Shown here piece after piece: positions 2,808 through 28,260 of a stretch of DNA of 31,225 bases. Every line of letters starts with the position of its first letter. The first letter of the stretch is position 1. Both the position numbers and the translations under genes were made by a program. The notes below the pieces were generated by a model that had not been told where the DNA came from, searched no databases, and worked only from the letters and a program-made list of their open reading frames with translations. Where the stretch lies: assembly GCA_035591015.1 (NCBI GenBank), contig JAXIUW010088894.1, positions 1 to 31,225 of the forward strand. Reading direction: 5' to 3'. The stretch comes from Cephalothrix simula. Its lineage: Eukaryota > Nemertea > Palaeonemertea > Archinemertea > Cephalotrichidae.

Positions 2808-2907
2808 TTATTTGAAACCATATTAAACGAAGAGCTCCTCTATCTATGAGAATAGTAGGCCTCTTAAGATCTGTTCTTGTGAAAGTGCTGAAATGAAAAA
2901 TCCGTAC
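2808..2907 (-). ncRNA. Predicted exon, family Z
   Basis: Acceptor CCTCAG follows a T-rich tract; donor is AA-GTAAATAAT. 100 nt. The body shares the GTTTAAT...GGTTTC 3' segment with the exons at 3456, 3839 and 4948. Confidence 0.5.
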
Positions 2908-3035
2908 CTGAGGAAATAAATTGGAAAATTAAGCCCCTCCCCCACACAAGAAATTCAATTGCCTACCTTATCTAATTACACTATTCAGATGCTAGTTTTA
3001 ATTTAAAAAATATTAGGCTATAGATTATTTCATAC

Positions 3036-3076
3036 CTAAAAATATGTTATTGTCATTTTCTTCCTAATATTTCCCC
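3036..3076 (-). ncRNA. Predicted 41-nt exon, family Z
   Basis: Branch point CGTAATC and acceptor ACTTTCAG; donor TTTTTAG-GTATGAAAT. Short exon of the same size as those at 5235 and 5387. Confidence 0.4.
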
Positions 3077-3455
3077 CTGAAAGTTTTGATTACGAAAAAG
3101 ACAGCATACATTATTTCATATGAATTGAATATTTCTTTCTAAATTTATTCAAACACTAGAAATCTGTGATCTGTAAATGGTTATTATTAATACAAAAAAT
3201 GGCAAGGTATTTTGTTTGTATACATTTCCTATTTCCAAATACTATTGGAATACTTTCCATTCTTTATGCTCAAATTTTATGGGCTGTAAAAGTTTAGATT
3301 ACAAAAAAGGCATAGCCACCCTATAACACTCATGGATAACTACTGAAACAAAATTTTTCTAATAACGAACATGAAATTGAGAATCCGCTCCATCCGTAAA
3401 CTAATACTCAAATTATACCGAACCTGCCACAAATTATGACAAAAATATTATTTAC

Positions 3456-3523
3456 TTGTAATAAACCAGATTGATTGTAGAGTTCCAGAGATTGTTCTTC
3501 TTGTCGTAAGATAATGGTTGTAC
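3456..3523 (-). ncRNA. Predicted exon, family Z
   Basis: Acceptor CCTCAG with upstream GTGGGGGAGGGG; donor ACAA-GTAAATAAT. 68 nt, shorter than its relatives because the middle is partly deleted. Confidence 0.45.
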
Positions 3524-3838
3524 CTGAGGAAATAAATTGGAAAATAAAGCCCCTCCCCCACAGAACACATTCAATTGCCTAGCTACTCAAAGTCACTAAA
3601 CTCACATGGCTATAAGTTTTGATGAAAAAGATATAATATTATTTCATTATAATCAACATAATTCTGGAAAATCTTTTTTCGGAAATGAAACCCGATTAAC
3701 TAGAAATTTTCCTTTTTTTTGATAAAGAATGATGAGAGTCCACTTCATCGGTAAACAACTATAACAATGAAATAGTACCCCACCCTTCCCACAAAAAATT
3801 TTAAAAAGATTTTGACATGGCAATAAAAAATTATTTAC

Positions 3839-3953
3839 TTATTCAAACCTCATAAATGTTGCGAAAGAGAATGGTACTTAGATCTCGTTTTCTTCTTGTC
3901 GTGGGAGAATGCAATGCGAATGTTCTGAAATGCTGTTGAAACCTCGGTTGAAA
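3839..3953 (-). ncRNA. Predicted exon, family Z
   Basis: Acceptor CTTCTCAG with diverged context; donor GTAAATAAT. 115 nt. Carries ATTCGCATTGCATTCTCCCA, shared with the exon at 4948-5046. Confidence 0.45.
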
Positions 3954-4094
3954 CTGAGAAGATAAATTGGAAATTTAACCTCCCCCTCCCCACAGAAGAC
4001 ATTCAATTGGTTAACACTATTCAAATTCATTAATTGTTTTAAGTTTTCAAAAAAATTTTAATATTTAAATAAAGTTTACATTTTTTTTGTTTAC

Positions 4095-4170
4095 CTTTCT
4101 CTTAGCGTTAGATGTTTTTTAAAACATAGTGAATTATTCATCCTAACATTTCTTCCTGAATTTATCAGAT
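4095..4170 (-). ncRNA. Predicted exon, family Z
   Basis: Branch region CGTACTCAAAGCC and acceptor TTTTACAG; donor AAAG-GTAAAC. 76 nt, diverged from its neighbours. Confidence 0.35.
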
Positions 4171-4947
4171 CTGTAAAAGGCTTTGAGTACGAAAAAGATA
4201 GCATACATTATTTCATGCGGTACAAAACAATTGAATTCATTAAATACTCTTAAATCTGTTAATCTGTATGCTAATTATTACGAAAAGTGGCAGAGCATAC
4301 ACTAATTTTATGAAGTACAGCATACACTAATTTTATAAAGTACAGACAATCTTTTGAAATACTTGCAATTCATACTCCTGTCCTCATAAAGGTACTAAAT
4401 TTTGGAATATTTTCCTTTTTCACATCTCAGGACCATAATTAACTTTCATTGCATACATGTATTTCTAAGATGTATTACATTTCATTAGAATCCTTATCTG
4501 TAAAAAGTTCTGATTACGAAAAAGAATACATAGATAACAAACTATAGAATTTCTTTTCTTTTGAAAACATTTCATTTAAAATCCCTCTTGAATTTTAAGA
4601 TCTGTAAAAATATTAGCAAGGCATAATTTGTTTCATTTAGTTCTGTTTAAACACATACTTGTTATTTGTATCATCCTTTGGAACACACGATTATCTTTCA
4701 TGGAACTTTAATTTCTTTGTTCAAAGAATTTTTTCTGTAAAAAGTTTTGGTTACGAAAAAAGGCAATTTCTATCTAAAACTTTTAACGATAACGTAAACA
4801 AGACAGTCTAACTTTAAATCTTGGATGTAAATCAAAGCCTAATAATAAACTAAGAAAATTTCATTTTTATGATAAATAATGTAAAAAATGAGATTCCTTT
4901 TCTTCTGTAAACAACTAATATAACATGGTAATATAAAGATTATTTAC

Positions 4948-5046
4948 TTGTCAGAAACCAGATTAAACGAAGAGTTCCTTCTAAGAGAATTTTCTTCTTA
5001 TCATGGGAAAATGCAATGCGAATTATGTGCTGGAATGTGGGTTTAC
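4948..5046 (-). ncRNA. Predicted exon, family Z
   Basis: Acceptor TTTATTTCCTCAG with a G-rich block about 25 nt upstream; donor ACAA-GTAAATAAT. 99 nt and the best preserved Z exon of this type. Confidence 0.5.
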
Positions 5047-5234
5047 CTGAGGAAATAAATTGGAAAATTAAACCCCTCCCCCACAGTACACATTCAATAG
5101 CCTAATCAGATTTACACTACTCAAAATCACTTAATCACAAAAAATTATGATTATTTCATTATACCTAACATTTAAAGATACCTTCTGTTTTTAAGTTTCA
5201 CCATTTCTGAGTTTATACCTTTCTTTTCTCTCAC

Positions 5235-5274
5235 CTTAGGGCCACAACTCATTACATTTCACCAAAATGTTGTT
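5235..5274 (-). ncRNA. Predicted 40-nt exon, family Z
   Basis: Branch point CGTAAGC and acceptor CGTTTACAG; donor CTAAG-GTGAGAG. A weaker alternative donor, TTAG-GTATAATG, would extend the exon to 5165. Confidence 0.45.
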
Positions 5275-5386
5275 CTGTAAACGTTTTGCTTACGAAAAAG
5301 AAGGCATACATTGTACCTAACATTTAAAGATACCTTCTGTTTTTAAGTTTCACCATTTCTGAGTTTATACCTTTCTTTTCTCTCAC

Positions 5387-5427
5387 CTCTAGGGCCACAA
5401 CTCATTACATTTCACCAAAATGTTGTT
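5387..5427 (-). ncRNA. Predicted 41-nt exon, family Z
   Basis: Duplicate of the exon at 5235-5274, with acceptor CTTTTACAG and donor AGAG-GTGAGAG. Confidence 0.45.
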
Positions 5428-5743
5428 CTGTAAAAGTTTTGCTTACGAAAAAGAAGGCATACATTGTTTCATACAGTAAAAACCAGTTGAATAATACTAT
5501 TCATTCATGAAAAAATTCAGTTAAGTTCTCTCGCTCTTGGACTTTTAGACTCTTTTAAGTTGAGTGCTCTCTTAGACTTTACCTGTAAAAGGTTATGATT
5601 ACGAAAAATTGCATGGCATACATTATTTCATAACTAAGCTAGGTCATCGACAAATCAAATCCTATATTTCTTAATTTTTAATGACTAATCCATATAAGAA
5701 ATCTTACAGAAAGTTGCAAAATATAGCTAAAAACTGGCTTTAC

Positions 5744-5884: not shown

Positions 5885-6064
5885 CTGAAACAAAGTCTAT
5901 TTAGGGACACCTATGGCATTTACGAAATTTAAACAAATGTGAAACTTATCACATGAAATAAGAAGCTTGATGAAAAAAGTTATCATACCAATTATAACGA
6001 ATTAAAATTTGTTTCTTCAGGTTTGCCTCTAATGATTTTTCAAATACTCGAAATGTCATCTTAC

Positions 6065-6165
6065 TTTTCAGGAACATTGGAAGCGGGAATTATGATTTCG
6101 GGACAGCAACACTATGATCGTCAGGTATGTAGATCTATTCTCCATTTTACGTTTTTACGGATACC
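6065..6165 (-). ncRNA. Predicted exon, family A
   Basis: Branch point CCGTAACC, acceptor AATTTCAG-G, donor AAAA-GTAAG. 101 nt, stops in all three frames, core CTGTCCCGAAA. Confidence 0.55.
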
Positions 6166-6410
6166 CTGAAATTGGATCTGGTTACGGACACCTACGATGA
6201 CATTTCACGCAAATCTCAGGAGAAAGAGAAATTCTTTTAAGGAAATTTTTCAATTAAGTGCATTTTAACGCATAAAAAGGTATTTGAATACCTGAAACTG
6301 TGTCTCGTTCTGTTAGGAACACCTATGGTAACATTTGCGAAATGAAATTTCAAATATATAATTAATGCTGAAAAATCCACCTATTTATAGCAAATAAACG
6401 ACCTTTTTAC

Positions 6411-6512
6411 CTGTCGATCTTTTTAATTCATGTTCATTCCATGCAAAGGACTCGGAAACGTCAGGAGAAAACAGCATTTTGATTTTAACTGTTAAAATTT
6501 CCAAACGGTGAC
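6411..6512 (-). ncRNA. Predicted exon, family A
   Basis: Branch point CCCTAACC, acceptor AGTTTCAG-G, donor GACAG-GTAAAAA. 102 nt, with the TTTCCGAGTCCTTT segment of type a exons. An extra acceptor-like block at 6291 has no room for an exon plus intron and is probably a relic. Confidence 0.55.
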
Positions 6513-6658
6513 CTGAAACTGGATCTGGTTAGGGACACCTACTGTAATATTTCGTATATTTCACATTAAAGAAAAACTATTACTTTCCTGTAAGTTAATT
6601 GAACATAACTACTTTTAAAGAGTTAACGCTTAATGATAATGAAAAAGATCCACTTTAC

Positions 6659-6797
6659 CTATTTCAGTCATTTTCACACACTAATTGCTTTTTCAGTATG
6701 ATGCAAGTGTAAAGAAAGTTTTGGGACATTAACCAACAATCACTTCTCATTTTGGACCAGAAAGGATTCTGTTTGGATAGGTAAAATTCTTAATTTC
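6659..6797 (-). ncRNA. Predicted exon, family A
   Basis: Branch point GCCTAACC, acceptor TAATTTCAG-G, donor AATAG-GTAAAG. 139 nt, core ATGTCCCAAAAC. Confidence 0.55.
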
Positions 6798-6952
6798 CTG
6801 AAATTAGGTCTGGTTAGGCATACCGAAAACATCGCGAATTTCATAACAACTTATCAATAACATTCATTTAAAAATTTCCTGGTTATGAAACAAATAAAAT
6901 GCAATTTAAAAGTTTCTTAAGTCTAAATTATGAAAAAATGAACTGTTTTTAC

Positions 6953-7116
6953 CGAGACCTCCTCTCACCAATTCACATTTCACACCATGGGTAAATTGAT
7001 GTAGGGAGTTCATCATGTTTAAGTGGAATTATTTGAAATGTAATTTTGGACGGAACAGCAATCATTCTTCAACGATATCTCTCATGAAACTTTGGTATAG
7101 GGAGCTTGAATATTTT
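6953..7116 (-). ncRNA. Predicted exon, family A type c
   Basis: Branch point CCCTAAC, acceptor TTAGTTTCAG, donor CTCG-GTAAAAAC. 164 nt. The body holds CCATGATGAACTCCCTAC, shared by the other type c exons. Confidence 0.6.
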
Positions 7117-7279
7117 CTGAAACTAAGTCTAGTTAGGGACACCTACGATATCATTCGCTAATGAAATTTAAAATCTGTAATTAATGCAGAAAAACCATCA
7201 AGCACTTTTTATTGCAAGTATTATTTAGTTTTATACCTGTTAGGTTGATCTTTTTTAATCATAATAAAATTAACCTTAC

Positions 7280-7388
7280 TTTTTCAGCTTGATTCCGTGT
7301 AAAAGTCTCGCGCCAGGTTTGACAATCATTTGAACTGGCATGGCGTGGGTATGTGTTCCCTCTAAATGGTAAAATTTTACACGATAAC
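7280..7388 (-). ncRNA. Predicted exon, family A type a
   Basis: Branch point CCCTAACC, acceptor AGTTTCAG-G, donor AAAA-GTAAGG. 109 nt. Confidence 0.6.
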
Positions 7389-7665
7389 CTGAAACTGGAT
7401 CTGGTTAGGGACACCTATGGTAATATTTCGCGTATAACAGAAGCTAATTCCAAAATGTTTTTTTCAAATTTTCCAATTAGTTCATTATATTCCTTTAAAT
7501 TTACTGTTAATTTTTTTAAAAATAATTACTTCAAATGTAATAAAATATATAGACTTTACCTATTTCAGGCATTTTCTCATACCCTGTGTGGAAGTTTTGG
7601 GTTATCAACATTCATCATTAATTGTTTGGCTTTGATCTTTTTGCTCACACTCAAAATAACCATAC

Positions 7666-7788
7666 TTTTTCAGGACGATAAAAAAGACTCTGAAGTGCCA
7701 GGTTTGAAGAGTGAAGACTTGAGACAGCACTCTGATTTGAACTATTGCTAGTATGTATTTTACTTCTAAATTAATTTTACACGATAAC
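7666..7788 (-). ncRNA. Predicted exon, family A type a'
   Basis: Two nested acceptors (TTTCAG, then TTACAG-G) follow branch point CCCTAACC; donor AAAA-GTATGG. 123 nt. One frame is open, but the equivalent frame is not kept in sister exons. A second donor, AATAG-GTAAAG, at 7560 would give a 229-nt version. Confidence 0.55.
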
Positions 7789-7959
7789 CTGTAACTGAAA
7801 CTGGTTAGGGACACCTACGGTAATATTTCGTGGACTTCAGCACAAAGTTTAAGTAATAAATTTCAAATAGCATTTTAGACATTTACAGTAAACGTTAATG
7901 ATTACTTATAATACTTGATAAGACTTAACACATAATGATAATGAAAACGTTAACATTAC

Positions 7960-8107
7960 CTTACACATTCTCTTACACTTTTCTCATTCAGCATTTTAGA
8001 GCAGTTAAAAGAGTCAGAAAAGAAAATTTGGGACATCAACCAATGTATTCATCACGAATAATCCTTGGATTGGTAACGATAGGTAAGATTCTTGATTACT
8101 TAATTAC
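7960..8107 (-). ncRNA. Predicted exon, family A type b
   Basis: Branch point CCCTAATC, acceptor TAGTTTCAG-G, donor AAG-GTAATG. 148 nt. The first 11 nt (GTAATTAAGTA) contain stops in all three frames. Confidence 0.6.
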
Positions 8108-8456
8108 CTGAAACTAGGTCTGATTAGGGACACCTAACGTCGAAAATTTCAGAAGAAATTAAATATAAACTCTTAATTTTATAAAACATCAGTTTACTTG
8201 ATAAATTTCGAAATAACGATTTTGATTTTAACTAAAGAAATACGCGTTTGTTCAGATTTTCTTAATAATATATTTCATCCAGTATCTAAATTCATCCTTT
8301 GCCCGAAATTAGGTCTGGTTAGGAATAACCGAATATCGCGAATTTCAGAACAACTTAAATTGAATTCCAAACTTAATGATATTCAATACAAATTTCCCAG
8401 TTATGAAATTTGCGATTTAACAACCTAAATTATACAGCAAAATGAAATGTTTTTAC

Positions 8457-8627
8457 CGAGACTTTCTCCTGTCATTACTTCACATTCCGCATCATTCATG
8501 GGTAAAATGAGTCCTTGTAGGGAGTTCATCATGGAGACATATATGGAGTTCTGGAACTCTTTGGACGGGACAGCAATTATTCGTCTAAGATTTGTTTCAT
8601 GAAAATTATGGGGAACTTGAATATTTC
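8457..8627 (-). ncRNA. Predicted exon, family A type c
   Basis: Branch point CCTTAACT, acceptor TTAGTTTCAG-G, donor CTCG-GTAAAAAC. 171 nt. Confidence 0.6.
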
Positions 8628-8761
8628 CTGAAACTAAGTCTAGTTAAGGACACCTACGATATCATTCGCGAATCTCAAATAAATTAAATGAAATTTTAAA
8701 GTTAACGTTTTTACCTTTTAGGCTTCGATCTTTTTTTTATTTTAACTAGAATGAACCTTAC

Positions 8762-8889
8762 TTTTTCAGCTTGATTTCATGTAAAGGACTCGGAAGCGCC
8801 TCGTTTGACAATTTTTGGGACAGCACAATGATTCGAACTGGTGCGGGTATGTACTTGTATTCCCTATAAATGGTAACATACACGATAGC
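8762..8889 (-). ncRNA. Predicted exon, family A type a
   Basis: Branch point CCCTAACC, acceptor TAGTTTCAG-G, donor AAAAA-GTAAGG. 128 nt. One frame is fully open and another nearly so, but 128 is not a multiple of three and the open frame is offset against the a' exon by a 5-nt length difference. I do not read it as coding. Confidence 0.65.
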
Positions 8890-9144
8890 CTGAAACTAGA
8901 TCTGGTTAGGGACACCTATGGTAATATTTCGCGTATAACAGAAGAAGGAGTTCTGATCCTACATTTTTTTCAATTTTTCCAATTAGTTCATTCTATTCCT
9001 TTAAATTTACAGTGATTTTTTAAAACATATTAATACTCAAAAAAATAATGAAATACATCGACTTTACCTATTTCAGGCATACACTGTGTGGAAGTTTTAA
9101 TGGTTTGGCTTTGATCTTTTTGGTCAGACTCAAAAGAACCATAC

Positions 9145-9267
9145 TTTTTCAGGACGATCAAATGTGAAAGACTCGGAAGTGCCAGGTTTGAAGACTTTTG
9201 GGACAGCACTCTGATTTGAACTATTGCTAGTATGTATTTTACTTCTAAATTAATTTTACACGACAAC
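9145..9267 (-). ncRNA. Predicted exon, family A type a'
   Basis: Branch point CCCTAACT, acceptor AGTTACAG-G, donor AAAA-GTATGG. 123 nt, the same length as the exon at 7666. Confidence 0.6.
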
Positions 9268-9444
9268 CTGTAACTGAAAACTAGTTAGGGACACCTACAC
9301 TAGTAGCACTCGTGGGCTTCAGCTTCAGCACAAAGTTTAAGTAATAAATTTCAAATAAAAATGTGCATTTTAGACATTTACAGTACGTTAATGATTACTT
9401 AATAAAGACTTAACACTTAATGATAATGAAAACATTAACATTAC

Positions 9445-9588
9445 CTTACATTTTTTTACAGTTTTCTCATTCAGAATTTTAGAGCAGTTCGGAGTCAAAA
9501 AAGAAAATTTGTGACATCAACCAACGTATTCATCATGAATAATCCTTGGATTGGTAGCGATAGGTAAGATTCTTGATTACTTAATTAC
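9445..9588 (-). ncRNA. Predicted exon, family A type b
   Basis: Branch point CCCTAATC, acceptor TAGTTTCAG-G, donor AAG-GTAATG. 144 nt, all three frames closed at once. Confidence 0.6.
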
Positions 9589-9940
9589 CTGAAACTAGGT
9601 CTGATTAGGGACACCTAACGTCGCAAATTCAGAAGAAATTAAATATATACTCTAATTTTATAAAAGGTCAGTTTACTCGATTTTGATTTGAACTAAAAAT
9701 AAATACGCATTTGTTCAGATTTCCTAGTAATATTTCATCCCATCCAGTATCTAAATTCATCTTTAGCCCGAAATTAGGAATAACCGAATATCGCGAATTT
9801 CAGAACAACTTAAATTGAATTCCAAACTTAATGCTATTCAATACAAATTTCCCAGTTATGGAACAAACAATTTGCGATTTAACAATTTTCTGGTTATGAA
9901 AACAAAACCTAAATTATACAGCAAAATGAACTGTTTTTAC

Positions 9941-10095
9941 CTAGACTTTCTCCTGTCATTACTTCACATTCCGCATCATTCATGGGTAAAATGAATCCTT
10001 GTAGGGAGTTCATCAATATGGAACTCTTTGGACGGGACAGCAGTTATTCGTCTAAGATTTTGTTTCATGAAAATTATGGGGAACCTGAATATTTC
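9941..10095 (-). ncRNA. Predicted exon, family A type c
   Basis: Branch point CCTTAACT, acceptor TTAGTTTCAG-G, donor CTAG-GTAAAAAC. 155 nt. Confidence 0.6.
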
Positions 10096-10230
10096 CTGAA
10101 ACTAAGTCTAGTTAAGGACACTTACGATATCATTCGCGAATCTCAAATAAATTAAATGAAATTTAAAAGTTAACGTTTTTACCTTTTAGGCTTCGATCTT
10201 TTTTTTTATTTTAGCTAGAATGAACCTTAC

Positions 10231-10358
10231 TTTTTCAGCTTGATTTCATGTAAAGGACTCGGAAGCGCCTCGTTTGACAATTTTTGGGACAGCACAATGA
10301 TTCGAACTGGTGCGGGTATGTACTTGTATTCCCTATAAATGGTAACATACACGATAGC
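10231..10358 (-). ncRNA. Predicted exon, family A type a
   Basis: Identical copy of the exon at 8762-8889, displaced by 1,469 bp. Confidence 0.65.
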
Positions 10359-10613
10359 CTGAAACTAGATCTGGTTAGGGACACCTATGGTAATATTTCG
10401 CGTATAACAGAAGAAGGAGTTCTGATCCTACATTTTTTTCAATTTTTCCAATTAGTTCATTCTATTCCTTTAAATTTACAGTGATTTTTTAAAACATATT
10501 AATACTCAAAAAAATAATGAAATACATCGACTTTACCTATTTCAGGCATACACTGTGTGGAAGTTTTAATGGTTTGGCTTTGATCTTTTTGGTCAGACTC
10601 AAAAGAACCATAC

Positions 10614-10736
10614 TTTTTCAGGACGATCAAATGTGAAAGACTCGGAAGTGCCAGGTTTGAAGACTTTTGGGACAGCACTCTGATTTGAACTATTGCTAGT
10701 ATGTATTTTACTTCTAAATTAATTTTACACGACAAC
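10614..10736 (-). ncRNA. Predicted exon, family A type a'
   Basis: Identical copy of the exon at 9145-9267. Confidence 0.6.
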
Positions 10737-10913
10737 CTGTAACTGAAAACTAGTTAGGGACACCTACACTAGTAGCACTCGTGGGCTTCAGCTTCAGCAC
10801 AAAGTTTAAGTAATAAATTTCAAATAAAAATGTGCATTTTAGACATTTACAGTACGTTAATGATTACTTAATAAAGACTTAACACTTAATGATAATGAAA
10901 ACATTAACATTAC

Positions 10914-11057
10914 CTTACATTTTTTTACAGTTTTCTCATTCAGAATTTTAGAGCAGTTCGGAGTCAAAAAAGAAAATTTGTGACATCAACCAACGTATTC
11001 ATCATGAATAATCCTTGGATTGGTAGCGATAGGTAAGATTCTTGATTACTTAATTAC
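10914..11057 (-). ncRNA. Predicted exon, family A type b
   Basis: Identical copy of the exon at 9445-9588. Confidence 0.6.
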
Positions 11058-11407
11058 CTGAAACTAGGTCTGATTAGGGACACCTAACGTCGAAAATTTC
11101 ACAAGAAATTAAATGTAAACTCTATTTTTATTAAACGTTAGTTGTTAAATTTCGAAATATTAACTATTTTGAATTTAACTAAAGAAATACACGTTTGTTC
11201 AGATTTCCTAAAAAGTATTTCATACAGTATCTAAATTTACTCTGCCCGAAATTAGGTCTGGTTAGGAATAACCGAACATCGCGAATTTCAGGACAACTTG
11301 AGTTGTTCTACAAATTTCCTGGTTATGAAACAAACAATTTGCGATTTAACTATTTTCTGGTTATGAAAACAAAACCTAAATTATACAGCAAAATGAACTG
11401 TTTTTAC

Positions 11408-11578
11408 CGAGACTTGTTCCTGTCACCACTTCACATTCCGCATCATTCATGGGTAAAATGAATCCTTGTAGGGAGTTCATCATGGAGACATATATGGAGT
11501 TCTGGAACTCTTTGGACGGGACAGCAATTATTCGTCTAAGATTTGTTTCATGAAAATTATGGGGAACTTGAATATTTC
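11408..11578 (-). ncRNA. Predicted exon, family A type c
   Basis: Branch point CCCTAACT, acceptor TTAGTTTCAG-G, donor CTCG-GTAAAAAC. 171 nt. Confidence 0.6.
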
Positions 11579-11713
11579 CTGAAACTAAGTCTAGTTAGGG
11601 ACACCTACGATATCATTCGCGAATCTCGAATAAATTAAATGAAATTTAAAAGTTAACGCTTTTACGATCTTTTACCTGTTAGGCTTCGACATACTAGCTC
11701 GAATGAACCTTAC

Positions 11714-11812
11714 TTTTTCAGCTTGATTAAAGACTCGGAAGCACCAGGTTCTGACAACTTTTGAGAGAGCACTATCATTTGAACTGGTGTGGGTATGTAC
11801 TTGAACTATAAC
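11714..11812 (-). ncRNA. Predicted exon, family A type a (shortened)
   Basis: Branch point CCCTAACC, acceptor CAGTTTCAG-G, donor AAAA-GTAAGG. 99 nt. The a' exon is missing from this higher-order unit. Confidence 0.6.
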
Positions 11813-11987
11813 CTGAAACTGGATCTGGTTAGGGACACCTTTCGCGGATTTCAGAACAAAGTTAAAGTAATAAATTCCAAATAAAAATGTTTCGCGGAAG
11901 TGCATTTTAGACATTTACTGTAAATATTAATAATTAGGGCCTACTTGAAAAAAGGTTTAGCGCATCATTGACATTACCCAGCATTAC

Positions 11988-18258: not shown

Positions 18259-18371
18259 CTGTAATAGACTTGATTAAAACAAAACAAGCCATAGCAAAAG
18301 GAAGCCCTAACTTTGCAATTTTTCTAATATATTTTAGATATGTAGTTTTATCAGTTAGATTAATGACTCAC

Positions 18372-18841: not shown

Positions 18842-19111
18842 CTGTAACTGAAGATTTCGTTAAGAGAAACACACAACATGGCACATCAGCAAATAAAAAT
18901 AGCATTATCTTCGCGATTACTTTTTAAGAATAGACCTAGTAATATGAATAGATGTAAATTACTGCAACCAAAATTAGTCAATACATATTAAATGTACATG
19001 TATATCATCAGCCGGGTTTATTGTGACTTAGTCCTACCATTGATGGGTCCGTTTGAATTTGGAACCTCATAACGCCTTTGAAAGTTATTGGTTAAAATAA
19101 GTTTAACTTAC

Positions 19112-19232
19112 AGCAAACACAGTACCAAACCTTTAGCTGTTGGGGTCACAGCCCAAGCCTCGGGTCTCAATATGGAATAGAGCACCTTCATACTGATGAG
19201 TATTACACTTCGTAAGGAAGCTTGCTCTCAGA
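19112..19232 (-). ncRNA. Predicted exon, family B
   Basis: Acceptor TTTAGTTACAG, donor GCT-GTAAGTT. 121 nt. Just upstream, a relic acceptor at 19337 has lost its GTAAGC donor. Confidence 0.55.
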
Positions 19233-19559
19233 CTGTAACTAAAGACTGTTATGAAAACAATGCACATCAGCCAATAATCCAACTCAGGCGTCGACAGGTA
19301 AATTCCTTTTCTGGACGAGCTTATAATCCCCTCACACTGTAACTGAAGAACCTGTTAAGAAAGCTTTGCACTCCAACTCAGGTATAATGACCTATTTTGA
19401 GAATTTAAAAACCATTCCAATGTGTGTATTTTCGATAACAAACTGCATCAAGGGACATTTGAAAGCAAACTTTCATGATCAATTATTAACATGCATGCAA
19501 AAAACTTTCATGATCAATTATTAACAAGCAAATAAACTTTCATGATTATTTTGACTCAC

Positions 19560-19672
19560 CAAATACCTCATTTTGAGCATTCCGCACCAGTGAGAATTTT
19601 TGGGCTATTTTGTATCTTCCTAAATTTTCTACACCAATGGAGATCACGTTGGGAAAATTTTGAGCTATTGTA
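19560..19672 (-). ncRNA. Predicted exon, family B
   Basis: Branch point TTTAATC, acceptor TCTATTGCAG, donor TTTG-GTGAGTC. 113 nt, with an 11-nt deletion relative to the 124-nt sisters. Confidence 0.65.
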
Positions 19673-19867
19673 CTGCAATAGACTTGATTAAAACAGCAAG
19701 GCACCGGAAATGCATTTGAAATAGGGCAAAGAAAACACAGATATACTATAGCATGACTACAAAATAGGGCACAGTATAGTAACATCATATGTTGAGATAT
19801 AAAATATACATTGATCTTGAATGGCGGCTCGAAACGTATTTGCATTTTTTGTAAATCTTTGACTCAC

Positions 19868-20018
19868 CAAATATGAGGAATTCTTTGATTTCAACTCCTT
19901 GGACTTTAACTGGAGGGGGTACTCTTAACTCAATATGTGCACTACTTTTTCAGTATTGGTTTCACCACTATAATTATCTTCATATTTCCTTATTATAACA
20001 GACTGTTTCTGCTGTGTA
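19868..20018 (-). ncRNA. Predicted exon, family B
   Basis: Branch point TCTAATC, acceptor TCTATTACAG, donor TTTG-GTGAGTC. 151 nt. Confidence 0.65.
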
Positions 20019-20146
20019 CTGTAATAGACTTGATTAGAAAAAAACAAGCCATAGCAAAAGAAAGCCCTAACTTTTGCAATTTTTCTAATATATTTTAGAT
20101 ATTTCCAATGTATTTTGTAGTTCTATCAGTTAGATTAATGACTCAC

Positions 20147-20268
20147 CGAGCCTGAAACATCAGCACAAATATTGTCAAGGTAACTCATTGATGACGTCAT
20201 AATCTAAATTCACTACAAATTCGATATATCTTAAATCCCGAAACATCAGTTTGTTATCACGCAATTAT
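20147..20268 (-). ncRNA. Predicted exon, family B, next to the assembly gap
   Basis: Branch point CTTAATC, acceptor TATTGATAG, donor GCTCG-GTGAGTC. 122 nt; contains a TGACGTCA palindrome at 20192-20199. Its acceptor region is repeated on the other side of the gap. Confidence 0.6.
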
Positions 20269-20336
20269 CTATCAATAGAAGACTTGATTAAGAGAAAACA
20301 TGCCCATGGTGTTTTTACAATATTGACACATAGTTG

Positions 20337-20436
20337 NNNNNNNNNNNNNNNNNNNNNNNNNNNNNNNNNNNNNNNNNNNNNNNNNNNNNNNNNNNNNNNN
20401 NNNNNNNNNNNNNNNNNNNNNNNNNNNNNNNNNNNN
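20337..20436. other. Assembly gap of exactly 100 N
   Basis: The 77 bp before the gap (20260-20336) and the 77 bp after it (20437-20513) are identical, so this is probably a false scaffold gap between overlapping contig ends. The true sequence most likely has one copy. Confidence 0.9.
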
Positions 20437-20721
20437 CGCAATTATCTATCAATAGAAGACTTGATTAAGAGAAAACATGCCCATGGTGTTTTTACAATAT
20501 TGACACATAGTTGCAAACGTTAAGCATCTTGTTTGTATCATCAAATCGTTGGAATCATTTAGAATTGTTGAATTCTATCCAACTATAAAATTATGGCGGA
20601 GATGGCTGGCGTACCGCAATCGATGTTGCCCCTAATTCATTTGCCTTTGATGGATAACCTAAGTCATAGGTAGTACCGGATGAATCACATAACAAGTCAA
20701 AAGTGTTGGTACAAAGACTTA

Positions 20722-20812
20722 CCAAACCATGCACAGGAGGGTTTTTAGGTGAAAGTGCATTACTTCATGTTTGTTTTGGGATTTCGTTTTTTGCACTCTA
20801 ATCTGTTGAAAA
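20722..20812 (-). ncRNA. Predicted exon, family B
   Basis: Branch point CTTAACG, acceptor TTCAGTTACAG, donor TTTG-GTAAGTC. 91 nt. Confidence 0.65.
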
Positions 20813-20957
20813 CTGTAACTGAAGATTTCGTTAAGAGAAACACATAGCACATCGGCAATGAAAAAGAAATCTTCGCGATTTCTTTTTAAGAATAGGCCTA
20901 GTAATATGAATATATGTGAATTATCGCAACCAAAATTAGTCTATAGGTTTAACTTAC

Positions 20958-21080
20958 AGCGAACACATGCATTCAGTACCTTTAGCTGTTGGGGTCACAG
21001 CCCATGCTCGGGTCTCAATATGGAATAGATCACCTTCATACTGATGAGTATTACACTTCTTAAAGAAGCTTGCTCTCGAA
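20958..21080 (-). ncRNA. Predicted exon, family B
   Basis: Acceptor TTTAGTTACAG, donor GCT-GTAAGTT. 123 nt. It contains a GACCCGAGC...GTGACCCCAACAGC block kept in all three copies. Confidence 0.6.
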
Positions 21081-21172
21081 CTGTAACTAAAGACTGTTGT
21101 GAAAACAATACACATCAGGCAATAATCAAACCCAGGCGTCAACAGGTAAATTCCTTTTCTAGACGAGCTTAC

Positions 21173-21233
21173 GTGTACAATCCTCTCACACGGATTAATA
21201 TTATAATTCGTAAGGGAGCTTGTTATTGTCAAA
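21173..21233 (-). ncRNA. Predicted short exon, family B
   Basis: Branch point CTTAACAG, acceptor TTCAGTTACAG, donor CAC-GTAAGC. 61 nt. Confidence 0.55.
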
Positions 21234-21408
21234 CTGTAACTGAAGACTGTTAAGAAAGAGTTGCATTCCAACTCGGGTAAAATGGAATACATATTTTGTT
21301 AATGGATTTTTAACTTTATTTATTTTGGATAACAAACTGCATTAAGGGACATTTGAAAGCAAAAGACTTTCATGATCAATTATTAACTTACGTGGTGGTG
21401 TGACTTAC

Positions 21409-21629
21409 TCATTCTTCGATTCCTGGATAGCTTCTTAACTTGTTAGTTTATCTTAGTTCCATCACAGGGTCTAGTTTGGACACTGAACATCATGTAATGT
21501 TTTCGAGCTCTCTTTTTCAAAAAGTTATGTTTGCGAGAAATATCTAAGGTTCGTTTCATCAGGAAACAATAGACATCATATGGAATGTGGTGCTTTTGAG
21601 ATTATTTTAAAAAAGAATTACCGGTAGCA
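21409..21629 (-). ncRNA. Predicted exon, family C inside array B
   Basis: Branch point CGCTAACC, acceptor ACATTACAG, donor ATGA-GTAAGTC. A second donor, CCAC-GTAAGTT, 17 nt further on is also kept in the paralogue. 221 nt. Confidence 0.6.
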
Positions 21630-21875
21630 CTGTAATGTAAACTGGGTTAGCGAGAAAACAATGTTTTGAATATATTCGAATGTTCTCCATAATTAAATCC
21701 ATATAATTATAAAAGGTTTTGAAACGCTAGAAAGGTGTTCGCTTTTTCACCATAACAAATGAAATGTGGTTAACATCGGATTTTTGTAGTTAAATATAAA
21801 TTTTGGTAGTTAAATATCAATTTTTTTACATCACGATTAATCTTAATTGTAACATCAAAGATATAAGAAACTCAC

Positions 21876-22035
21876 TTTATTCTTAGGGACTTCTATTCAC
21901 ACGACGAACAGCCTTTTAAGTCGATGCGACCAACACCCCATTAAGTCGATGCTACTTTGTTAATTGCTCATTCTGTGACACTTGTCATCATGAGAATTTA
22001 GGTAGAGCTTTTTCAAAATCCCAAAAGAATTAACA
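21876..22035 (-). ncRNA. Predicted exon, family C inside array B
   Basis: Branch point CGCTAACCC, acceptor ATATTACAG, donor AAA-GTGAGTTTC. 160 nt; core GTGTCACAGAAT. Confidence 0.65.
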
Positions 22036-22432
22036 CTGTAATATATGTTGGGTTAGCGAGAAAGCAATGCAATGTTGTCAACATTAAAACGTCTTTACAA
22101 TATTTTAAAAACATAAGGTAGGCCTATTGATTTTGGTACGTTGATACATAACCTCCATAGATACCCATACATTCCTAAGTTTATATTAAGCAGAAAATGA
22201 TAACTCAAACTGACTCAAAGTCGAATTTCATGTTAAATCTTCACCAACCTCTTTGCAATATTCTAAGGCCTACATTGCGACCATGGTAATTTAATTCTTA
22301 ATTGACGTCATAATGAAATCATTATCAATTGACTGTTTTACATGTCAAAATTAATCATCAGTGGTTGGAAGTTAACTCTTGCTTTTATTGCAGCTTAATG
22401 TTTTTTTCTCTCCAATTGCCTGGCTAGCTTAC

Positions 22433-22556
22433 ATGGCAAACAGGTAGAATTGGTAATGTTGCAAAATAGGATTCTTAAATTGTAATTGGTTATGATTTAT
22501 CATGTACAGCTGAAAATTTTTAACCATTTTAACCATTTTGTGATGCGAAGTATATT
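22433..22556 (-). ncRNA. Predicted exon, family B
   Basis: Branch point GCTAACAAG, acceptor TAATTATCAG, donor GCCAT-GTAAGC. 124 nt; preceded by a 62-nt intron. Confidence 0.6.
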
Positions 22557-22618
22557 CTGATAATTATACTTGTTAGCAAGTTCAATGTAGAAGAGGACAC
22601 TTGAATATTTTGACTCAC

Positions 22619-22742
22619 CAAATACCTCAAGATGTTTTCATTTCGAGCATTCCGCACCAGTGAGAATTTTTGGGCTATTGTGTATCTTCCTAAATTTTGT
22701 ACACCAATGGAGATCACGTTGGGAAGATTTTGAGCAAGTGTA
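22619..22742 (-). ncRNA. Predicted exon, family B
   Basis: Branch point TTTAATC, acceptor TCTATTGCAG, donor TTTG-GTGAGTC. 124 nt. Confidence 0.65.
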
Positions 22743-22931
22743 CTGCAATAGACTTGATTAAAAGAACAAGGCACCGGAAGGCATTCGAAATAGCGCAAAA
22801 AAGAATCCAGGGATACTATAGCATCACTACAAAATAGGACACAGTAGTAACATCGTAGACATATACAATACACCTTGATGTTGAATGGCGGCTCGAAACG
22901 TATTTGCATTTTTTGTAAATTTTTGACCCAC

Positions 22932-23081
22932 CAAATATGAAGGATTCTTTGATTTCAACTCCTTGGACTTTAACTGGAGGGTTACTCTTAACTCTGTAGG
23001 TGAACTACTTTTTCAGTATTGGTTTCAACACTATAATTATCTTCAAATTTCCTTAGTATAACAGACTGCTTCTGCTGTGTA
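22932..23081 (-). ncRNA. Predicted exon, family B
   Basis: Branch point TCTAATC, acceptor CTTATTACAG, donor TTTG-GTGGGTC. 150 nt. Confidence 0.65.
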
Positions 23082-23198
23082 CTGTAATAAGACTTGATTA
23101 GAAAAAAACAAGCCATAGCAAAAGAAAGCACTAACTTTGCAATTTTTCTAATACATGTATATTTTAGATATTTCCAATGTATTTTGTAGTTTTATCAC

Positions 23199-23315
23199 CT
23201 AGCCTGAAACATCAGCACAAATATTGTCAAGGTAACTCATTGATGACGTCATAATGTAAATTTACTAAAAATGCTTTCCTATCGCCGAAACATCAGTTTG
23301 TTATCACGCAATTAT
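23199..23315 (-). ncRNA. Predicted exon, family B
   Basis: Branch region CTTAATG, acceptor TATTGATAG, donor CTAG-GTGATAAA; the usual GCTCG-GTGAGTC has been removed by a small deletion and a near substitute is present. Contains TGACGTCA at 23244-23251. Confidence 0.5.
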
Positions 23316-23594
23316 CTATCAATAGAAGACTTCATTAAGAGAAAACATGCCCATGGTGTTTTTACACAGTAGTGCCAACGTTAAGAATCTTGTTTGGATC
23401 ATCAAATTGTTTGAATCCTTTAGAATTGTTGAATTATATGGATCTATATGCAACTGTAAAATTATGGCGGAGATAGGTGGCATACCTACCGCAAACAATG
23501 TTGCCCCTATTTCATTTGCCTTTGATGGATATCCTTAGTCATAGGTAGTACTGGATGAATGACATAAGTCATAAGTGTTGGTACCAAGACTTAC

Positions 23595-23684
23595 CAAACC
23601 ATGAACAGTAGGGTTTTTAGGTGAATGTGCATTACTTCATGTTTGTTTTGGGATTTAGTTTTTTGCACTCTAAACTGTTGGAAA
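23595..23684 (-). ncRNA. Predicted exon, family B
   Basis: Branch point CTTAACG, acceptor TTCAGTTACAG, donor TTTG-GTAAGTC. 90 nt. Confidence 0.65.
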
Positions 23685-23939
23685 CTGTAACTGAAGATTT
23701 CGTTAAGAGAAACACATAACATGGTACATTGGCAATGGAAAATAGTAACATCTTCGCGATTTATTTTTAAGAATAGGCCTAGTAATATGAATAGATGTGA
23801 ATTTTCGCAACCAAAATTAGTCAATACCTATTAAATGTATATCATCAGCCGGGTTTATTTGGACTTAATCATACCATTGATGGGTCGGTTTGAAGTTTGC
23901 AACTCACAAAAGCTATTGGTTAAAATAAGTTAAACTTAC

Positions 23940-24048
23940 AGCGAACACATGCAGTACCAAACCTTTAGCTGTTGGGGTCACAGCCCAAGCTCGGGTCTCA
24001 ATATAGATAGATCACCCTCATACTGATTTAAGGAAGCTTGCTCTCGAA
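23940..24048 (-). ncRNA. Predicted exon, family B
   Basis: Acceptor TTTAGTTACAG, donor GCT-GTAAGTT. 109 nt. Confidence 0.6.
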
Positions 24049-24139
24049 CTGTAACTAAAGACTGTTGTGAAAAAAATGCACATCAGGCAATAATCAAACT
24101 CAGGCGTCAACTGGTAAATTCCTTTTTGGACGAGCTTAC

Positions 24140-24197
24140 AAACCTCTCACACGGATCAATATTACATTTCGTAAGGGAGCTGGAGCTTGTTGTCAAA
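24140..24197 (-). ncRNA. Predicted short exon, family B
   Basis: Branch point CTTAACAA, acceptor TTCAGTTACAG, donor TTT-GTAAGC. 58 nt. Confidence 0.55.
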
Positions 24198-24377
24198 CTG
24201 TAACTGAAGATTGTTAAGAAAGAGTTGCATTCCAACTCAGGTATAATGAAATACCCATTTTGAGAATTTAAAAACGATTCCAATGTGTGTATTTTGGATA
24301 ACAAACTGCATTAAGGGACATTTGAAAGCAAAAAACTTTCATGATCAATTAATAACTTACGTGGTGGTGTGACTTAC

Positions 24378-24609
24378 TCATTCTTCGATTCCTTAGGATA
24401 GCTTCTTAACTTGTTAGTCTCATCATAGGGTCTAGTTTGGACACTGAACATCATGTAATGTTGTAGAGCTCTCTTTTTCAAAAAGTTATGTTTGCGAGAA
24501 ATATCTAAGGTTCGTTTCGTCACGAAAATGGTGTTGTGACACTAGACATCAATTGGAATTTGGTGCTTTTGAGATTACAATGTATTTTTAAAAAGAATTA
24601 CTGGTAGCA
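24378..24609 (-). ncRNA. Predicted exon, family C
   Basis: Branch point CGCTAACC, acceptor ACATTACAG, donor ATGA-GTAAGTC, or CCAC-GTAAGTT ending at 24361. 232 nt; paralogue of 21409-21629. The core appears twice in the body (GTGTCACAACACC and GTGTCCAAACTAGACCC). Confidence 0.6.
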
Positions 24610-24864
24610 CTGTAATGTAAACTGGGTTAGCGAGAAAACAATGTTTTGGATATATTGGAATGTTCTCCATAATTAAACATTTTAAACCATATAAATATAA
24701 TTGTAAAAGGTTTTGAAACGCTAAAAAGGTGTTCGCTTGTTCACCATTACAAATGTTGTCAACATCGGGTTTTTGTGGTTAAATATCAATTTTTGTAGTT
24801 AAATATCAATTTTTTTACATCATGATTAATCTTAAATATAACATCAACGATATAAGAAACTCAC

Positions 24865-25005
24865 TTTCAACTTGTTCTTAGAGATTTCTATCCATACGAC
24901 CATCATCTCATTAAGTCGATGCCACTTTGTTAATTGCTCATTCTGTGACACCTGTCATCATGAGAATTTTGGTAGAGCTTTTTCAAAATCCCAAAAGAAT
25001 TAGCA
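24865..25005 (-). ncRNA. Predicted exon, family C
   Basis: Branch point CGCTAACCC, acceptor ATATTACAG, donor AAA-GTGAGTTTC. 141 nt with stops in all frames; 19 nt shorter than its paralogue at 21876. Confidence 0.65.
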
Positions 25006-25349
25006 CTGTAATATATGTTGGGTTAGCGAGAAAGCAATGCAATGTTGTCAACATTAAAACGTTCTTTACAATATTTTAAAACCATATGGTATTGATTTTG
25101 GTACGTTAATACATCCAGTTAACCTCGGTCTATACCCATACTTTCATAAAATCTATTATTTATCTGGATGACGTTGATAGGGTCTTAATGTTTACTTGAT
25201 AGAATTGTAACATCAAAACTTATACTTATCGACTTCTATTCATGCGACCAACAGCATATACATGGAACGGTATTGGTTTTGGTACCTTGATAGGGTCTTC
25301 ATGATTCCTTAATATTTACTTGTAAGAACTATGACATCAAAGTTAAGAC

Positions 25350-25404
25350 TTAATCGACTTCTATGCATGCGACCAACAGCATATTCGGTTGATGCGACTC
25401 GCCG
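25350..25404 (-). ncRNA. Weak exon candidate, family C
   Basis: Branch region TCCCTAACCC and acceptor TTATATCAG are good, but the donor (AA-GTCTTAA) is poor. A related stretch at about 25215-25260 has a better GTATAAG donor but no acceptor, so the two may be halves of a rearranged unit. Confidence 0.3.
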
Positions 25405-25605
25405 CTGATATAAGGTGGGTTAGGGAGAAAGCCATGCTTTCAACATTTAAATGTTCTCTGATATAAATTCTAAAATATTTTAACGTCGGCAGTGTCTGTA
25501 ATTGTTAAATTTTTAAGACTTTTAGAAATGTGGCTGATATCAGTTATATTTACAACAAGATAAATTTAATTATCACGTTAAAGATTTTAAAAAGTCAACA
25601 TATAC

Positions 25606-25708
25606 TTATGTACTTAAATTCATGCGACCAACAGCATCCCGACTTTTATTGTGAGGTTGAAATCGTGTGAACTTTGGTGGAGCTCTTCGAAAATTCCGAA
25701 AAATTGCA
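25606..25708 (-). ncRNA. Predicted exon, family C
   Basis: Branch point CGCTAACCC, acceptor TAAATTACAG, donor CATAA-GTATATG. 103 nt. Confidence 0.5.
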
Positions 25709-25860
25709 CTGTAATTTAAGTTGGGTTAGCGAGAAAGCAATGTTTTCAACATTTAAATATTATTAAAAATTCTAATTTTTCAACGTCGTTAAGGTTTGTT
25801 TACTTGTTTTAAAAATGTCGCTGATATCAGTTTTAGTGATTTAAGATGTATTAAACTCAC

Positions 25861-26033
25861 TTTTTGCCTAATACCTATGGATATCTTGATGGAACATTTA
25901 TGTTTCTTATCAGGAGCTCATATTCTTGCCTTTTTATTCCAATGGATTTCTATTCATGCGGTTTGCAGGGCTTTTTTGACACTTGACACCATGAGAACTT
26001 AGGAGCTTTTTAAAAATCCCAAAATAATTACCA
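25861..26033 (-). ncRNA. Predicted exon, family C
   Basis: Branch point TGCTAACAC, acceptor CTCTTTTACAG, donor AAA-GTGAGTTT. 173 nt. Confidence 0.6.
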
Positions 26034-26206
26034 CTGTAAAAGAGTTGTGTTAGCAGGAAAGCAATGTTTTCAACATTTTAATGTTTTCTACTAATACTAT
26101 AAATCAATACTATAAATTGTATTTCATAACTATTTTTTGAACATGTGTACTTGATCGACTGGCATCAGTTAATTTATGACATCAAAGATATGAGAAACTC
26201 TCTTAC

Positions 26207-26293
26207 ACCTACTGGACTCCTCACTTGTGACACTTGACTGATATATCATGAGAACTTAGGTGGAGCTTTTTTTCGAAATTCAGACAAATTTCA
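26207..26293 (-). ncRNA. Predicted exon, family C
   Basis: Branch point CGCTAACC, acceptor TATATTACAG, donor AGGT-GTAAGAG. 87 nt. Confidence 0.55.
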
Positions 26294-26402
26294 CTGTAAT
26301 ATAAGTCAGGTTAGCGAGAAAGCAATGTTTTTGAACGTCAAAAAAAGTTATTTTTTACTTTAAATGTGACATCGAGATTGATTTAAGATGCAAGGAACTC
26401 AC

Positions 26403-26516
26403 TTTTCTACTATTACCTGTGGATTTCCATTCATGTCATTTATCACAGGACTTTTATGACACTTGACATCATGAAAAATTAGGGGCAGCTTTTTCTAAAT
26501 GCCAAAAGAATTAGCA
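26403..26516 (-). ncRNA. Predicted exon, family C
   Basis: Branch point TGCTAATAC, acceptor TTTTGTTACAG, donor AAA-GTGAGTTCC. 114 nt. Confidence 0.6.
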
Positions 26517-26731
26517 CTGTAACAAAATTTGTATTAGCAAGAAAGCAATGTTTTCAACATATACATGTTTTTTACTATAAATCATATTTCAAAACCAAAT
26601 GATTCGTTTTTGGAATGTCGGCGAGGTCTTGTTTACTAGTAGGACTTTTAAATGTGGTTGACATAAGTTTCCTTCAGATGCAGATTATTCATGTTAATTT
26701 ATGATAACAAAGATGAAAGAAACTCTTATAC

Positions 26732-26846
26732 TTATCGATTGATTCATGGGACCAACAGCCAATGAAGTTCATTCGGCTAGTCTAAAGCCTTATTTTGTGA
26801 CCCTTGACGTCATGAGAGCTTTCTTGAAATCCCATAAGAATAAGCC
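26732..26846 (-). ncRNA. Predicted exon, family C
   Basis: Branch point CGCTAACC, acceptor TTATGTTACAG, donor GATAA-GTATAAG. 115 nt. Confidence 0.5.
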
Positions 26847-27022
26847 CTGTAACATAAGTCGGTTAGCGAGAGAGCAAAGTTCTAAAAGCCATGTAATGAA
26901 TTTTGAAATTTGCATCATTTGTAAAATAAACACCGTCTTATGTACAGCATTGGATTTTCGAGCTTAAAAAATTCAGTGGTTACTAAAATGCGTTAAACTT
27001 TAGGCAGGTTTTTGGAACTCAC

Positions 27023-27193
27023 TTTTGTAATTCTACTTCAATATTGTTCATGCAGTTTCGTCACAAGGCATTTTACGACGCTTCAAAGTTTCTAGGTTTT
27101 CATGAGGCTTCACTGGGCGAATTGTGTGCATTTGAATGATTTGATGCATTCGAGAGAAGAATCGAGGTTTTTCGAAATTACAAATAATTGACA
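27023..27193 (-). ncRNA. Predicted exon, family C
   Basis: Branch point CGCTAACC, acceptor TATATTGCAG, donor AAA-GTGAGTTCC. 171 nt. One frame stays open for about 49 codons before a stop; its neighbours do not share it. Confidence 0.6.
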
Positions 27194-27436
27194 CTGCAAT
27201 ATAAATCTGGTTAGCGCGAAAGATTTCGGATGATTTTGAAAGATTGACATATTTTGTGACACATCAGATAATTTTCGTATAATTTCAAAATCACATAAGT
27301 TGGGTTAATGCAAAGCAATATTTTTCAGCATTTTCGAATGACCTTAAACGGTGGGTTGAAACATGAAAGATTATTAACACTTTATAACCATCAAGAGTTT
27401 TTGGGATTGAATTATTACATCGAGGAAAGGACTCAC

Positions 27437-27546
27437 TTTTATACTTGTTATTCTTTTGTAAGATTCGTTGCATCACCGGGTCTATTTTGTAATACTTATC
27501 AGCATATATTTCTTGCCTCAAGTTCTGTGACATAACGGGGCAACCA
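27437..27546 (-). ncRNA. Predicted exon, family C
   Basis: Branch point CGCTAACCC, acceptor TTATATTGCAG, donor AAAA-GTGAGTCC. 110 nt. One frame is open across it, but the next exon upstream has stops in every frame. Confidence 0.65.
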
Positions 27547-27649
27547 CTGCAATATAAGATGGGTTAGCGAGAAAGCAATGTTTTCATGTTACTTTCGCTT
27601 ATTCAGATTGTAATAATCAGGTTGGATGATTTTAAAACCAAGGATTCAC

Positions 27650-27792
27650 CTTATTCTAATACTTCTACTTGTATCCATTTAAGAAAAGTTTCATCACCGG
27701 GTCTATTTTGTGACACTCTTATCTTGATAAATTTCGTGCCTTTTTATGAATTTCGTTTATAACGGGGCTTATTGTGACACGTCTGGGTAACA
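27650..27792 (-). ncRNA. Predicted exon, family C
   Basis: Branch point CGCTAACCC, acceptor TATATTACAG, donor ATAAG-GTGAATCC. 143 nt; two copies of the GTGTCACAA core. Confidence 0.6.
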
Positions 27793-27932
27793 CTGTAATA
27801 TAAGTTGGGTTAGCGAAAAAGCAATGTTGTCAACATTTTTGCATTACATGTACCGTGTTTTGAAACGTTTTCCTACAGGTTCTTTTCTTTACAATATGAT
27901 ACAACCTTTTCTATTTCATTTATGATTCTTAC

Positions 27933-27989
27933 AAGGTAATTTTTGTGCGTTTCATCACAGGGATTATGTTGTGACACATCTGGGTAACA
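27933..27989 (-). ncRNA. Predicted short exon, family C
   Basis: Branch point CGCTAACCC, acceptor TATATTACAG, donor CCTT-GTAAGAA. 57 nt; core GTGTCACAAC. Confidence 0.55.
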
Positions 27990-28132
27990 CTGTAATATAA
28001 GCTGGGTTAGCGAGAAAACAATATTTTCAACATTTTGAATAACCGTGTTTTGAAACTTTTGCTTAGATATTGTTTCTATACAATATTATACAACTGCTTT
28101 GATTTCATTTATGGTAATTACAAGGTATTCAC

Positions 28133-28260
28133 CTAATTACTTCTTATACTTTAACTTGTTATCCTTTTGTAAGATTAGTTTCATCACCGGGTATGTTTTC
28201 TGACACTTTTCATCTTGCTATATTTCGTGCATTTTTATGACTTTCGTTTCATCGGTAACA
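28133..28260 (-). ncRNA. Predicted exon, family C (first of the array)
   Basis: Branch point CGCTAACCC, acceptor TATATTACAG, donor TAG-GTGAATACC. 128 nt; core GTGTCAGAAAAC then ACCCGGTGATGAAAC. No further unit is seen to its right. Confidence 0.6.

Follow-up and report, generated by a model that had tools for sequence, protein, structure and literature searches.

What kind of gene, if any, carries dozens of closely related splice signals in a row on a single strand? The question is raised by a contig of the Cephalothrix simula assembly GCA_035591015.1 (JAXIUW010088894.1), which was analysed over its full length of 31,225 nucleotides and is called the window in the following. Its minus strand carries an array of 70 branch-point/acceptor modules that run from 28261 down to 3077 and fall into four groups, termed A to D. 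The explanation that we consider best, with a probability of roughly one half, is an animal gene on the minus strand that has grown in tandem to about 70 internal exons, which would be spliced into a long noncoding repeat RNA.

Architecture of the array

An initial annotation of this DNA had described branch point, acceptor, exon and donor as recurring in this order on the minus strand, and all four elements are present in that order, on that strand and where they had been placed. It had also proposed an amplification in tandem that produced four families with about 65-70 exons in total, and this agrees with our count of 70 acceptors, 9 in group A, 26 in group B, 20 in group C and 15 in group D. 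The array, its strand and the order of its elements can thus be read directly from the DNA. One further module, at 20446, was excluded from the 70: it lies beside a gap of 100 N (20337-20436) whose two flanks (window 20238-20508) repeat each other, and one exon copy, this module, is therefore probably an assembly duplicate.

Twelve of the 15 group D acceptors form a block on the minus strand at 25006-28261 (acceptors at 28261, 27990, 27793, 27547, 27194, 26847, 26517, 26294, 26034, 25709, 25405 and 25006) with the signature CTTTCTCGCTAACCCAACTTATATTACAG, and the other three lie at 24610, 22036 and 21630; the commonest donor of the group is AAA|GTGAGT. Group C (minus strand, 15996-24198, 20 acceptors) has the signatures TTTCTAATCAAGTCTATTACAG and TTTCTCTTAACGAAATCTTCAGTTACAG and most often the donors TTG|GTGAGT and GTAAGT, and its span also encloses the two group D acceptors at 22036 and 21630. 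The 26 acceptors of group B (minus strand, 5885-13310) share the signature TAGGTGTCCCTAACCAGATCTAGTTTCAG and are followed by donors such as GTAAAA, GTAAGG, GTAATG and GTAAAG, while the nine of group A (minus strand, 3077-5583) share the signature ATGTATGCTxTCTTTTTCGTAATCAAAACTTTTACAG and have donors that are not clear-cut. In the region of group A, four exons with the pyrimidine-rich acceptor ATTTCCTCAG were also recognized by eye, and the last of them (minus strand, 2808-2907), with a GTAAAT donor, forms the lower end of the interval that had been annotated.

A donor could be assigned to 50 modules; the 20 excluded ones comprise the whole of group A (nine) and eleven modules of the other groups. 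The exons of this 50-exon set have a median length of 127 nucleotides (nt), and the distance from an exon to the following acceptor of the list has a median of 176.5 nt. Examples, all on the minus strand, are a group D exon of 110 nt at 27437-27546, preceded by ATATTGCAG and followed by AAAA|GTGAGT, a second group D exon of 141 nt at 24865-25005, which is a paralogue of 21876-22035, a group C exon of 124 nt with a GTGAGT donor at 22619-22742, and a group B exon of 171 nt at 11408-11578, which ends at GTAAAAAC. In the analyses of donors, of the six block pairs described below, of the 50 exons and 30 representatives chosen from them, and of the branch-point A, the acceptor at 16844 was placed at 16849, five bases off.

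Acceptor and donor signals

The last three intron bases at the 70 acceptors are CAG in 65 cases, TAG in two, GAG in one and CGG in two. In 54 of the 70 modules, the branch-point A is located 16-19 nt upstream of the exon, and in each group branch point and acceptor are set in a longer conserved stretch. TAAC or TAAT occurs 14-21 nt upstream of 60 of the 70 acceptors but only of 41/666 other YAG positions on the minus strand and 76/744 on the plus strand, a contrast that is partly circular because part of the acceptor list was first picked by a TAAY search pattern. Position weight matrices are less circular in this respect. With one acceptor left out at a time, 57/70 scored higher than any site on the plus strand or in 20 first-order Markov shuffles (6/9 in A, 23/26 in B, 16/20 in C and 12/15 in D); the plus-strand maxima of the group matrices were 10.9, 5.0, 8.2 and 8.9 bits for A, B, C and D. 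Even matrices trained on the three other groups recovered 5/9, 21/26, 16/20 and 15/15 acceptors of A, B, C and D at 20 plus-strand false positives, and 4/9, 12/26, 9/20 and 13/15 at five.

One could argue that the array simply consists of generic splice signals of the host. On three other contigs, acceptors that adjoin matches to protein kinases speak against this: 0/8 of them, a small sample with approximate exon boundaries, have a TAAY at -21 to -14. The array acceptors therefore look like kin of one ancestor and not like the usual type of the host. Upstream of one of these kinase matches (contig C190, 7883-8089), the acceptor is preceded by TTCCTTAAC, which we take to resemble a minor (U12-type) branch point.

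Donors were scored in bits with a donor table. Inside the array, 75 donors of at least 7 bits are found on the minus strand versus 28 on the plus strand, whereas the flanks have 9 versus 10, which means that strong donors occur by chance there as well. Of 77 such donors, 37 sit 80-180 nt past the nearest acceptor, compared with 20.1 +/- 4.3 after rotation (0/1000 rotations as high). The gain in strength is modest: over 69 acceptors, the strongest donor that follows has a mean of 6.9 bits versus 6.2 +/- 0.30 at random minus-strand positions, and at least 8 bits are reached at 25 of the 69 acceptors versus 21.1 at random minus-strand positions.

Growth by tandem duplication

Self-comparison of the window gave 68 direct matches and a single inverted one, a hairpin at 1771-1845 outside the array. 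Two higher-order tandem repeats, both on the minus strand, stand out. The first (6784-11840) is built of units of about 1.45-1.5 kb, each of which contains several exons, and reaches 83% identity across 3787 alignment columns at an offset of 1454. The second (17461-25149) has units of about 1.8-3.0 kb that contain group C and group D exons, and its main matches have 76-87% identity. Some copies are young, as 300 bases at 8731-9030 match 10200-10499 at 100%. The array arose through direct tandem duplication at several scales.

The assembly that was searched comprises 580 contigs (8.6 Mb), among them C71, which is identical with the window. For two array queries of 1.2 kb, one from groups C/D and one from group B, copies were found within C71, and elsewhere there were just three matches, 37-51 bases in length; a 1.6-kb query from the 5' flank (29000-30600) was single-copy within the assembly. 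On these three queries, we rejected a transposon as the source of the repeats. The three short matches (C283:10451-10487, C442:4877-4927 and C245:14098-14138) represent a dispersed repeat that is shared with the window at about 25095-25152. Two exact patterns of the array motif had no match in viral contigs.

Divergence between copies and exon motifs

Between tandem copies, the acceptor regions differ at 14/606 sites (2.3%), the exons at 217/2958 sites (7.3%) and the remaining introns at 444/3711 sites (12.0%). These counts come from five block pairs that share blocks and are thus not fully independent; a further pair, Y/Z, was omitted because of its redundancy with X/Y and X/Z. The ratio of acceptor to intron divergence is 0.19, and none of 5000 label rotations was as low; for exons versus introns the ratio is 0.61, and 0.84% of the rotations were as low (p 0.008). 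Donors diverged less than introns in five of six block pairs. Since acceptors and exons diverge less than introns, splicing and, less strongly, exon content appear to be under selection, and it is the splice signals above all that look preserved. This also speaks for the spliceability of the array that the initial annotation had claimed.

A motif with a consensus of about GATGWCAAGTGTCACAAAATA is common to group D exons. In the interval 21968-28214 (minus strand), 12 matches lie above the plus-strand maximum, 11 of them in predicted exons; altogether, 16 matches exceed that maximum, 12 inside and 4 outside predicted exons. The motif was found in 10 of the 13 group D exons tested, and its total score of 146 compares with 64-87 in four mononucleotide shuffles. 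A weaker motif of the group B exons scored 117.6 versus 63-71 in shuffles. Both comparisons are rough, as the real exons were searched from 40 random starts and each shuffle from 12.

How might such a locus have come about, and what could it do? An exon together with its adjoining intron may have been duplicated in tandem repeatedly, first singly and later as multi-exon blocks, which would have yielded about 70 internal exons of four families. From the sequence we infer that the array is transcribed, as a single transcript, and that this transcript has a noncoding function. It would perhaps extend from near 30480 to below 2800, and splicing would join many related short exons into a long RNA that acts as noncoding RNA. 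Our guess as to its most likely role is that of a repeat scaffold, in which many exons would each add a copy of the short motif of their family, to be recognized by a partner that is either a protein or an RNA; the position of the 3' end is a guess as well.

Alternative explanations

Several observations weigh against a spliced noncoding repeat RNA. Two group B acceptors, at 11246 and 8303, have lost their AG, the donor after the acceptor at 23316 appears to be lost, and group A is without convincing donors. In block pair X/Z, the donors are not better conserved than the introns (8/45 versus 111/831). Folding of 26 exons gave no stable structures relative to shuffled sequences (mean z 0.09), and any scaffold role would therefore have to rest on sequence motifs. 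Finally, a frame is open throughout in 13 of 30 representative exons, compared with 5.7 +/- 1.9 in shuffled exons and 4.7 +/- 2.0 in intron windows of the minus strand; the representatives were hand-chosen from the 50-exon set, some of them are still related, and so are several of the 13 open ones.

The last point leads to the alternative that survives best, according to which the exons code or recently coded for short peptide segments, as in a coding gene with tandem, perhaps alternative, exons of which many copies are broken. We regard it as unlikely, and the evidence is divided. In the whole 50-exon set, 23 exons are open on the sense strand versus 9.5 +/- 2.6 expected, and 11 on the antisense strand, so that the excess is confined to the sense strand; in the 30 representatives, TAA is somewhat rarer and TGA commoner than in shuffles. 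The open frame of the exon at 22619-22742 is also open in the 17927 copy, and a gap of 11 nt is present in the 19673 copy. Within one exon family that aligns without gaps, substitutions at codon positions 1/2/3 of the open frame number 8/6/14, as would suit a coding sequence, but two other gapless pairs gave 3/0/4 and 3/1/1, with few sites. Moreover, gap lengths in 18 exon pairs are mostly not multiples of three (7/38 are divisible), exon lengths modulo three are distributed as 18/14/18 over the 50 exons, without a phase bias, and the start and end phases of the open exons disagree. None of ten open reading frames (ORFs) exceeded the Pfam cut-off, with two weak matches at E 0.034 and 0.081, and no protein homologue was found for the two ORFs searched. 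On the gap lengths, the exon phases, Pfam and these two protein searches, we rejected a coding gene as the leading explanation; the excess of open frames remains. The earlier claim that the exons are noncoding therefore holds in so far as there is mostly no conserved reading frame, and it is qualified by the 13/30 open exons where about 5-6 would be expected by chance.

A noncoding array could also work as a device for choosing exons. The arthropod gene Dscam1 has dense tandem arrays of coding exons that keep their phase, with a pairing of docking and selector sequences. The present array resembles it in the density of its tandem exons and in the splice signals that each of them brings along, and differs from it in that its exons have no common phase. 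If exons were chosen singly or in combination, very many noncoding isoforms would result, and the conserved stretch before the acceptors of each group, which is longer than a branch point needs, could serve as the selector. However, no docking complement above the level of shuffled patterns was found for six selector patterns in the window, G-U pairs not considered, and such a device seems rather improbable to us.

Still less credit is due to a neutral tandem expansion of one exon without any function, in which the likeness of the splice signals would reflect shared descent only. Young copies and some decayed modules are what such an expansion would leave behind, but the splice signals differ several-fold less than the introns of the same copies, which are of the same age.

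The remaining candidate is a host gene for intronic small RNAs, like the SNORD115/116 arrays. Our own scan for box C/D-like arrangements gave seven hits, all of them on the minus strand, and 0-2 in each of ten Markov controls; the seven are one repeated exon family with four copies and three single hits. With four of the seven hits being copies inside a predicted exon of one family, with introns that are the least conserved part of the array, and with no match to a small nucleolar RNA (snoRNA) in Rfam at E up to 1, this is the least probable explanation. An intronic array of C/D snoRNAs, with one snoRNA per intron that is more conserved than the exons, was not found, H/ACA snoRNAs were checked through Rfam alone, and a tRNA search of the window by ARAGORN, set to the bacterial code, was negative. 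A known RNA family was thus rejected, as Rfam, ARAGORN and the C/D scan gave no supporting match. The repeated C/D-like arrangement itself belongs to a group B exon family (7988-8055, 9471-9536, 10940-11005 and 11993-12080).

Relation to known noncoding repeat genes

The initial annotation had been aware of no described long noncoding RNA of such build and scale. As a claim of novelty this was too strong, as noncoding exons are arranged in tandem at a similar scale in SNHG14 of mammals, albeit as a host of snoRNAs, and Firre has repeat-bearing exons. For SNHG14, 29 SNORD116 and 47-48 SNORD115 repeats are given (PMC4742849, PMC11608373), with 29 and 48 introns (PMC11608373), and the C/D snoRNAs carried by the introns are described as more conserved than everything else in the region (PMC4742849). 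The array would share with SNHG14 the tens of tandem noncoding exons in a single transcript, whereas its introns are the least conserved part and yielded no intronic snoRNA array. For Firre, the repeat RRD is given as making up 7/13 human and 11/23 mouse exons and as a nuclear retention signal (PMC4820808). We take Firre to be the functionally closest known system, as both would have a locus-restricted repeat spread over many exons of a spliced noncoding RNA; here, the exons are predicted, number about 70 in four families and cover 25 kb, and a relation in sequence is not expected. Mammals are known to have arrays of this general type, and the present one is built differently. No tandem-exon long noncoding RNA of a mollusc appeared in the literature, judged by titles and abstract openings among the matches listed.

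We tentatively propose, as a possibility somewhat less probable than our general explanation, that the exon amplification is itself the design. In almost all copies, selection would maintain the branch point and the acceptor while the exon bodies drift, and the cell would splice together a long repeat RNA, perhaps in varying combinations, instead of obtaining it from a genomic repeat. This would represent an independent origin beside SNHG14 and Firre, without snoRNAs. If the array is spliced as predicted, it would provide an invertebrate case of a repeat RNA made by tandem exon amplification, its paralogues alone would show that selection can act more strongly on splice signals than on the exons that they join, and one could test directly if it is the number of repeats or the choice of exons that matters in such RNAs.

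Flanks of the array and the assembly

Upstream of the array, a plausible promoter and first exon, found by eye and a guess on our part, lie on the minus strand at 30392-30491. A TATA-like ATATATATT at 30491-30483 is followed by about 70-85 nt that end in AGG|GTAAGT, with the donor GT at 30391-30390. Still further upstream on the minus strand, the window contains the palindromes AACTGGTTAGAACCAGTT and CCGACGTCGG at 30716-30751, which are possible promoter elements. Beyond the other end of the array, the region 1290-1860 may represent a hairpin-type element with short tandem repeats (units of 52 and 32 bp at 1368-1627). Its 75-bp inverted repeat at 1771-1845 weakly resembles microRNA models: the only Rfam matches at E up to 1 were three weak ones to hairpins at 1770-1845, none of which reached its gathering score.

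The assembly is mixed, with bacterial-type contigs (C1), a mollusc-like mitochondrial contig of 16.2 kb (C12) and animal genes. Of two COX1 genes, one is an ordinary frame of 600 residues on a 190-kb contig, and the other, on the 16.2-kb contig, has 12 TGA codons and reads in the invertebrate mitochondrial code. The ORFs beside the latter are presumably NAD2 and COX2. Among up to 8000 candidates considered, the best matches of this TGA-bearing COX1 have 91-93% identity, and the best named ones are gastropods, the first being Clithon retropictum with 90%. The window would probably belong to the same mollusc. Rhodopsin-type receptors were matched 13 times in the assembly and not once in 14 control genomes, which shows that animal nuclear DNA is present in the assembly.

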